A DNA stretch of 64,000 bases from Verrucomicrobiales bacterium. Lineage in GTDB: Bacteria > Verrucomicrobiota > Verrucomicrobiia > Verrucomicrobiales > DEV007. Below the pieces are notes generated by a model that had not been told where the DNA came from, made no database searches, and worked only from the letters and a program-made list of their open reading frames with translations. A program made the position numbers and the translations under genes. Below are positions 48,473 through 55,620 of the stretch, piece after piece. The stretch lies in assembly GCA_028047635.1 (NCBI GenBank), contig JAOFXR010000004.1, forward strand, positions 1-64,000, given 5' to 3'. How positions within the stretch are numbered: position 1 is the first letter of the stretch; each line of letters opens with the position of its first letter.

Positions 48473-49003
48473 CTACTTTTTGTCGACTTCCAACTCTTCG
48501 AGAGTCGCGGCAATCTGCTCACCATGAGACCCGGCTTTCACCCCGGTCTCCATGTGAAGAATCTTCCCGTCCTTGCCGATATAGACAGTAACACGCCCCG
48601 AGTTCTTTTTGTTTCCGCTAATGAGCCCATAATCCGTCGCGGTTTCGCGCTCAGGATCGCTCAGAATCGGATAATCAAGATCCAGTGACTCAGCAAATTT
48701 CTTATTGGTTTCCGCGTCGTCGCAACTTGCAGCGAAGTAAGCAACGTCGAACTCCCGAATCTTCTCGCCACTCTCACGGAGCGACTTGCATTCGGCTGTT
48801 CATCCACCCGTAAAGGCTTTGGGAAACCAGGCGACTACAACCGCCTGCTTCCCTTTAAAATCGGACAACTTGTAGGTCTCGCCATCGCTTCCCTCAAGGG
48901 AGAAGCCCGGCGCTTTATCACCGACTTCGAGGTCGGCTTGTGCATTGGTCGCCACAAAAGCCATTCCAAGAAGGAGGCCTGCCGCGAGGATTGTTTTTTT
49001 CAT
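48473..49003 (-). CDS. Secreted peroxiredoxin (AhpC/TSA-like); in-frame TGA at the peroxidatic Cys position, candidate selenoprotein
   Basis: MKKTILAAGLLLGMAFVATNAQADLEVGDKAPGFSLEGSDGETYKLSDFKGKQAVVVAWFPKAFTGG[TGA]TAECKSLRESGEKIREFDVAYFAASCDDAETNKKFAESLDLDYPILSDPERETATDYGLISGNKKNSGRVTVYIGKDGKILHMETGVKAGSHGEQIAATLEELEVDKK; same frame on both sides of TGA 48800-48802. Confidence 0.85.
48755..48795 (-). promoter_or_regulatory. Candidate bacterial SECIS-like stem-loop downstream of the in-frame TGA
   Basis: On the mRNA: UGA-ACAG-CCGAAU-GCAAG-UCGCU-CCGUGAGAGU-GGCGA-GAAG-AUUCGG; 6-bp outer and 5-bp inner complementary arms. Confidence 0.5.
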
Positions 49004-53614: not shown

Positions 53615-54539
53615 TCATTTGGGGGCATCCTTACTTTCTATGTAAGCTTTGGACTTGGAGGGGGCATCTAACACATTCTGTATTTCCCGTATTAAATCAT
53701 CGACTGTTTCGATCTTCTTTAATGGAACTGATAACCCCATCGAATCACCTGCAACATTAAGCATCAAAGCCGGTCGCGTTCGCACTCCATAGAGTTTAGC
53801 GACCCTGCGATTTCCGGTCATCTCATCGGTCATTGCCATCCGACTTGTCTTCGGTTCAACTCGAATCAGGCAAAGTACCAAATTTTTCCCGGCCCAACTG
53901 CGAAATTCCGGTGCATACAGTAATTTATTCTCGATCCTTGAACTGCTCGAGTCACCGATAATAATTATTGCGGTGAGACGGGGAATCTGGAGCGCCTCCG
54001 CTTCTTTTTCGGCCCTGACTATTTCAAGATACCATGTTGCCGCCCTACCTGAAAACTTCGCAGCCCTCGCGAGGGACTCTTCTATCTTACTTAAATCACC
54101 CCCATCCTTGAATTCACCCAGAAAGGCTTGATCACCTTCGCTCAAATTTGAAAGAGGCATGATAAACCGTTGATAGCTGCCCTTTCATTGAAACCGATTT
54201 TGCCATCCCGTTTCGCCATGATTACGACATCGATTTTTCTGCCACCCAGATCCTCGATAACCCGGCCAAGAGGAAAGGCGAGAGGATCGGGAGAGGTGTC
54301 TTTAACCATAGGGGGAGCTGACTCGTCTTCGCCCTCAACGGCTTTACTAACTTCAGTTTTAGCTTCAGCTTCCGCCTCAGTTTTAGCCACAGCAGAATCA
54401 GGAATCATCTCGACCTTCTCCTCTTCTTTAGAAATCGACTCCAGAGGATTTTTTTGTCTTTTTTATCAACCTTACTGAGGTCAGTGCAGCGAACCAGCGC
54501 GGCAGACAGGAGAATTATAAAATGGGGAAATACCTTCAT
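53615..54539 (-). pseudogene. SHD1-like + thioredoxin-fold lipoprotein broken by two -1 frameshifts
   Basis: Three consecutive ORF fragments: MKVFPHFIILLSAALVRCTDLSKVDKKDKK / NPLESISKEEEKVEMIPDSA...IEDLGGRKIDVVIMAKRDGKIGFNE / KGSYQRFIMPLSNLSEGDQAFLGEF...; each junction is repaired by one extra A in an A-run. Confidence 0.72.
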
Positions 54540-54639
54540 GGATGAATTGTAGCAGTGCATCATATGAAACATTAATTCGCTTCGCAATATTTTTGAGACA
54601 ATCTTCGACCGGCAATTTCGAAGTGGCGCCGATCCGGTT

Positions 54640-55620
54640 TCACGGGAGATTCCGAATTGGTTGCCTATGCCGAAAGCAAAGATGGGCACGAATGGACCTT
54701 CCCAAAACTGGGGCTTCATGAGATCGCAGGATCAAAGGACAACAATGCAATCCTGATCAACCAGCCGAGCCTGCTTCACAACTTCGTCCCCTTTTTAGAC
54801 AAGCGACCGAGCATTGCACCTGAAAAAAAATTCAAAGCGCTCGCAGGCCACCCCGGCCCGAGAGACAAACGCACTATGGAAGTCGCCGGCAAAGGGCTCT
54901 ACTCTTTTACTTCGCCCGATGGCATTCACTGAAAAAAGGGGGCCGAAGCCCATTGCGATGAACCCGAATCTCCCCGGCGAACATCTCTACACCACACAAA
55001 CCCATCCGTATTTTCGCGCTCCGCATCTCTACATCGCCCTGCCCACTCGCTACATTCTCAACCGGGGTGGCGATGGGAACGGCGCCGCCTCGGAACGTAA
55101 TGCCACAGACATTCTTTTCATGTCGACTCGCGCCGGATCCGACCACTTTGACCGCCCCTTTACCGAGGCCTTTATTCGCCCTGGACTCGATCCGAAGCGC
55201 TGGGACAATCGAGCCAATTATGTGGCTCTCAATGTTCACCCGACAGGACCCGCTGAAATGTCAATTTATCACCGCAGTGGCGATCGCTATGTGCTGAGAA
55301 CAGATGGTTTCGTCTCCGCTTATGCGGGATCAAAAACGGGGCGACTGCTAACTAAGCCCTTTCGTTTTTCGGGCGATACACTTGAGCTCAATGCCAGCAC
55401 CAGTGCCGCAGGCCAAATTCAGGTAGAGATACAGGATAGCGAGGGGAAAGCATTTCCCGGCTTTGAGTTCGAAAACAGTATTCCACTATTTGGCGACGGA
55501 ATCGCTTTGAAAGCCTCTTGGAAAAATGAGGTCTCTCTCTCCTCCCTGAAAGGAAAGACTGTGCAGCTGAAATTTTCCCTGCTGGAATGCGATCTCTACT
55601 CCTATCGATTTAAGGAATAA
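54640..55620 (+). pseudogene. 5'-truncated, interrupted remnant of a large secreted glycoside hydrolase-like protein
   Basis: GDSELVAYAESKDGHEWTFPKLGL...GLYSFTSPDGIH-TGA, then a different frame KPIAMNPNLPGEHLYTTQTHPYFRAPHLYIALPTRY...DILFMSTRAGSDHFDRPFTEAFIRPG...; no N-terminus or signal peptide. Confidence 0.65.

Follow-up and report, generated by a model that had tools for sequence, protein, structure and literature searches.

Introduction

In classical BCP peroxiredoxins the resolving cysteine lies five residues past the peroxidatic residue (C-x4-C), and the PrxU protein of Eubacterium acidaminophilum is of the AhpC type. Peroxiredoxins (Prx) carrying selenocysteine (Sec) in a TxxU motif have been reported as 43 sequences in the Sargasso Sea data (PMC1088965) and 253 in the GOS data (PMC2398784), and Sec-Prx is listed in a 2026 review (PMC13188914). 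In Table 1 of a 2006 survey, all changes recorded for Prx ran from Cys to Sec (PMC1794560).

Here we analyzed a 64,000-nucleotide stretch of a Verrucomicrobiales genome (the window), in which an apparently interrupted gene almost certainly encodes, as judged from its sequence and those of its orthologues, an exported peroxiredoxin in which a TGA at the catalytic position specifies selenocysteine.

Results

Translated with TGA as U, the coding frame 48476–49003 on the minus strand has one TGA, at residue 68, as its sole interruption. The protein starts with MKKTILAAG, reads AWFPKAFTGG directly before the TGA and TAECKSLRES directly after it, and ends in LEVDKK followed by TAG. The following features were delineated:

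48473..49003, minus strand: gene of the predicted exported Sec-peroxiredoxin; ATG at 49003, TGA (Sec68) at 48802-48800, TAG at 48475-48473; 176 residues
48935..49003, minus strand: signal-peptide-like N terminus MKKTILAAGLLLGMAFVATNAQA of 23 residues, approximate cleavage after AQA; based on the sequence, orthologue hydrophobicity and low pLDDT over residues 1-21
48800..48802, minus strand: in-frame TGA, predicted to be read as selenocysteine, at the peroxidatic residue of PKAFTGG-U; 55 TGA and 29 TGC/TGT in distinct orthologue regions
48788..48790, minus strand: codon of Cys72, the candidate resolving cysteine (U-x3-C); invariant in all aligned TGA and Cys genes
48767..48785, minus strand: predicted bacterial SECIS, apical stem-loop GUCGCUC-CGUGA-GAGUGGC; 7 bp, 5-nt loop, conserved GUG
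48755..48795, minus strand: extended lower stem of the predicted SECIS hairpin; kept in close relatives only

An earlier note on this DNA had described a frame with an in-frame TGA at the peroxidatic Cys of PxxxTxxC, and both the frame and the residues on either side of the TGA were recovered as written, with 108 codons following the TGA instead of the 109 it had counted. The truncated ORF of 67–71 residues that it expected from automated annotation corresponds to 67 residues from the ATG at 49003 and 71 from an upstream start. The 176-residue read-through product that it proposed matches AhpC-TSA (PF00578; E 1.9e-30, residues 27–150) across the TGA, and its orthologues carry TGA or Cys at the same codon.

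Elsewhere in the window, three short frames that overlap one another and lack Pfam matches (53615-54719, minus strand) resemble the pieces of a single gene disrupted by frameshifts or by errors in assembly; they have no link to the TGA finding. Other TGA-joined frames of the window were considered as further selenoproteins and rejected, no Pfam domain extending across any of their TGAs.

An orthologue profile retrieved BCP/PrxQ structures, and an AlphaFold2 model calculated from 15 orthologues adopted a thioredoxin/peroxiredoxin fold (pLDDT 84) in which residue 68 begins the first main helix. The best Foldseek matches of this model were BCP/PrxQ proteins, with E values of 1e-14 to 1e-15 to BCP structures. 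P61, T65, C/U68 and R137 were invariant in the 15 orthologues, comprising the PxxxTxxC/U site and the conserved Arg. A hydrophobic, signal-like N-terminal stretch was detected by a hydropathy test in each of the 81 orthologues whose N terminus could be read, and the first 21 residues of the model showed low pLDDT. Together, sequence and model place the protein in the BCP/PrxQ-like group of peroxiredoxins, with predicted export. The scores stayed below the NCBIfam cut-offs for BCP (NF006960, 84 of 140 bits), PrxQ (NF053650, 70 of 260), PrxU (NF040737, 38 of 270) and the SelL-related family (NF040769, 25 of 120), and no NCBIfam model at cut-off covers the exported U-x3-C subfamily. Cys72 was invariant in the 81 genes of the codon comparison (53/53 TGA genes, 28/28 Cys genes). 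This invariant Cys lies at +4 from the peroxidatic residue (U68-C72) in all sequences, and not at +5 as in the classical BCP α2-type spacing, rendering the resolving step uncertain.

Searching 34 genomes of the genus yielded orthologues in 18, of which 13 had TGA and five TGC or TGT at codon 68. Scanning named genomes turned up 80 loci, distributed over Verrucomicrobiota, Planctomycetota and Acidobacteriota (50 TGA, 27 Cys, three unread by the pattern), some of them from the same congeners. After removal of duplicates, 84 distinct orthologue regions from the three phyla remained, with TGA in 55 and TGC/TGT in 29 at exactly codon 68, proportions that do not represent a census as the peptide patterns of the scan encode Cys in one of their two seeds. 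No codon other than TGA or Cys was found at this position among the aligned orthologues. Downstream of the TGA, Ka/Ks averaged 0.14 over 25 TGA–TGA pairs (about 0.04–0.25), values that are approximate as some Ks are near saturation; as judged from this divergence, purifying selection acts on the sequence past the TGA. Homologues with Cys or TGA at this position, which the earlier note had suggested looking for, do exist, and their catalytic Cys aligns with the TGA and not elsewhere.

In one congener (G009, L026) the orthologue has the TGA and loses its reading frame some 50 codons further on; a piece matching the C terminus is found on the same contig, 1.5 kb downstream, so that this gene looks disrupted or misassembled. 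We found no general conserved operon partner at the loci, where a second peroxiredoxin or a sulfatase adjoins some of the genes. About ten loci (L196:2406-2963 and similar) have another peroxiredoxin-like frame, of the Cys type, near the subfamily gene.

The apical stem begins 15 nt past the UGA, and the window RNA following the UGA folds better than shuffled sequences (z = -2.6 and -3.3). RNAalifold applied to 53 TGA genes independently arrived at this helix, with its 7 bp and 5-nt loop. For these genes, helix 18-24/30-36 was paired in 96.2% of cells, with both-sided changes in 29 cells at four pairs against 7.2 ± 2.1 in shuffles, and pairing collapsed with slid-partner controls, never exceeding 62.5%. 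In the 28 Cys genes the same helix was 59.7% paired, not clearly beyond shuffles, and was not predicted by RNAalifold. Since relatedness can inflate the shuffle statistics, more weight rests on the slid controls and on the difference from the Cys genes. In the CGUGA loop, G26 and U27 are nearly invariant, and the Arg76 codon that it contains is CGT in 49/51 TGA genes compared with 9/24 Cys genes (p = 6e-8); on these codon counts, the bias is a synonymous constraint tied to the TGA. The lower stem keeps every pair in the TGA genes of the close relatives G007, G029 and G012 and does not in most of the distant TGA genes. The covarying stem-loop of the TGA genes, which the Cys genes do not share as a set, has by computation the features of a bacterial SECIS.

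We built a tree of the orthologues with residue 68 masked; its support values come from a quick search, so that its deep branches are not to be trusted. The Cys gene of the closest relative, G027 (L010; 81% identical), groups as sister to the window's gene (SH-aLRT 94) and is nested among TGA genes. The Cys gene of G025 (L016) is likewise surrounded by TGA genes, in a clade with a support of 97. This nesting is most simply explained by two Sec-to-Cys switches. Both genomes keep selB, and the remnant of the SECIS is still visible, with an almost intact apical stem in G025 and a partly broken one in G027. By these comparisons, G025 and G027 represent apparent recent Sec-to-Cys switches within one genus. 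The tree as a whole requires a minimum of 12 state changes, four of which are forced by well-supported branches. The use of Cys by G027 implies that Sec is not indispensable.

The window's own genome (G000) is a metagenome-assembled genome, 63% complete. On its contig C1, selB (295 bits, cut-off 242), selA (501, cut-off 268) and selD (389, cut-off 125) exceeded the NCBIfam cut-offs, and selD is a selenoprotein gene itself, with an in-frame UGA at CAGU. The cluster (L099:5462-12589, L208:3641-4696) comprises selB, a PhnC/PhnE/PhnE-like ABC transporter and selA, with selD a few genes on. The binding protein of this phosphonate-type transporter passes TIGR04553 with 253 bits (cut-off 250); its putative role in selenate uptake is an NCBI hypothesis, supported here by its position between selA and selB.

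In this 63%-complete bin, tRNA-Sec was not found with the Rfam model, the gene DNA of the closest relative, a genus-specific covariance model or an anticodon-stem pattern, all of which yielded ordinary tRNAs only. Eighteen congeners carry a canonical tRNA-Sec of 95 nt with a UCA anticodon. Between selB and the contig end, C1 has its genes in the same order as G027, where the end of C1 falls at about position 232,400 and tRNA-Sec at 217,510, placing the syntenic tRNA-Sec position about 15 kb beyond the end of C1. tRNA-Sec was likewise not recovered from G028, which is 95% complete, and is cut by a contig end in G006 (C31:1-54) and G030 (C22:21200-21250); the two truncated copies suggest that assemblies tend to break at this locus. 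Of the machinery that the earlier note had suggested searching for, selA, selB and selD were present in the genome, and tRNA-Sec was seen in the 18 congeners and not in the bin. One congener (G002:C73) has two tRNA-Sec genes, at 119883-119977 and 120585-120679, about 600 bases apart. Outside the genus, selB exceeded the cut-off in 24/26 sampled TGA genomes compared with 13/24 Cys genomes (Fisher p = 0.003); as many Cys genomes also have selB, this co-occurrence is one-directional and the codon cannot be predicted from selB by itself.

The genus also contains a second TGA-containing family (L210:165-977; L212 and L038, minus strand), a membrane-anchored Prx-like protein of about 270 residues with the motif RGFWUPFCVSELQGL (U-x2-C), which is probably another selenoprotein.

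Discussion

A nonsense mutation, or a sequencing or assembly error in a dying gene, might be suspected for a sequence from a metagenome bin with fragmented-looking frames nearby at 53615-54719 and a congeneric orthologue, that of G009, visibly broken further downstream. Such an origin is highly improbable: TGA recurs in 55 distinct gene regions drawn from numerous separate assemblies, the covarying helix is confined to TGA genes, the Ka/Ks past the TGA is low and the only alternative codons are those for Cys. The recurrence of the same TGA together with its stem-loop bears out the earlier note, which had deemed a random nonsense mutation unlikely. The failure to recover tRNA-Sec from the bin would also agree with a selenoprotein by descent in a strain that has lost this tRNA and no longer makes the full protein, a scenario we consider very unlikely with selA, selB and selD intact, selD retaining its own UGA, the contig stopping before the syntenic tRNA position and the tRNA genes of G006 and G030 visibly cut by contig ends.

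Two further accounts concern the decoding itself. Relatives use Cys as the alternative residue, and tRNA-Cys with a UCA anticodon is known from some metagenomes, as would be expected if a tRNA-Cys(UCA)-type tRNA or near-cognate suppression decoded the UGA as cysteine. The canonical 95-nt tRNA-Sec of 18 congeners, the clustering of selA, selB and selD with a putative selenate transporter, and a conserved SECIS-like helix that a plain suppressor would not need make this reading just as improbable as a mutation or error. A general reassignment of TGA to an amino acid could draw on the one in-frame TGA that is read through and has a negligible probability, since TGA terminates 13 of the 38 long non-overlapping ORFs of the window and is therefore still an ordinary stop, and since no domain spans the TGA in the other TGA-joined frames. 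Decoding of this UGA as Sec, in a secreted peroxiredoxin as the earlier note had proposed, is well supported at the sequence level by the conservation of the codon, the SECIS-like helix and the presence of selA, selB and selD.

In the proposed mechanism, SelB would deliver Sec-tRNA to the UGA on meeting the stem-loop, allowing the ribosome to continue to 176 residues, and the signal peptide would carry the protein across the inner membrane. Sec68, activated by the Prx site residues T65 and R137, would then attack the peroxide, the resulting selenenic acid would be resolved by invariant Cys72, or possibly Cys94, with formation of a selenenylsulfide, and an exported thioredoxin-like thiol partner would recycle the enzyme. 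We infer these catalytic steps (Sec68 as peroxidase, resolution by Cys72, recycling by a partner) from the conserved residues.

The two inferred Sec-to-Cys changes within one genus contrast with the Cys-to-Sec-only record for Prx in Table 1 of the 2006 survey (PMC1794560). The orthologues form a natural series in which the benefit of Sec relative to Cys can be studied, running from UGA with SECIS, through Cys with a near-intact remnant (G025) and Cys with an eroding one (G027), to Cys with none.

A search over part of the literature found no papers on exported Sec-peroxiredoxins or a U-x3-C subfamily. TxxU Sec-peroxiredoxins are already known, and the exported U-x3-C subfamily appears to be undescribed and is without an NCBIfam name. 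That it constitutes an exported Sec-Prx subfamily across PVC and Acidobacteria, with a U-x3-C pair, undescribed as a family and with repeated Sec/Cys exchange including recent Sec-to-Cys changes with the SECIS still visible, is a tentative proposal to which we give slightly less than an even chance. If true, it would place selenium-based peroxide defence outside the cytoplasm. As routine gene callers truncate the enzyme at 67 residues or miss it, the many genomes with the family probably have more peroxide defence and selenium dependence than their annotation shows.

Compared with known systems, the protein shares a redox-active thioredoxin fold with the selenoproteins of the Prx-like thiol:disulfide oxidoreductase (UxxC) and SelL-related (NF040769) families, which have UxxC where the present protein has TxxU. 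With PrxU of Eubacterium acidaminophilum (NF040737) it has in common Sec at the peroxidatic position, and it differs by reaching 38 bits against the cut-off of 270 of this 233-position model. Its best relatives in fold and sequence are the BCP/PrxQ thiol peroxidases (NF006960; PDB 3drn, 5epf, 5iiz), from which it departs by its 84 of 140 bits, Sec in place of Cys, a candidate resolving Cys at +4 instead of +5, and predicted export. The Sec-Prx with TxxU (COG1225/PF00578) from marine metagenomes and sequenced bacteria, as described in passages of PMC1088965, PMC2398784 and PMC13188914 that do not mention export, match it in Prx fold, PxxxTxxU motif, bacterial SECIS and widespread Cys homologues. 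From the Sec-Prx as described there, the present proteins are set apart by a signal-like stretch in all readable N termini and the U-x3-C pair, with members from Verrucomicrobiota, Planctomycetota and Acidobacteriota.
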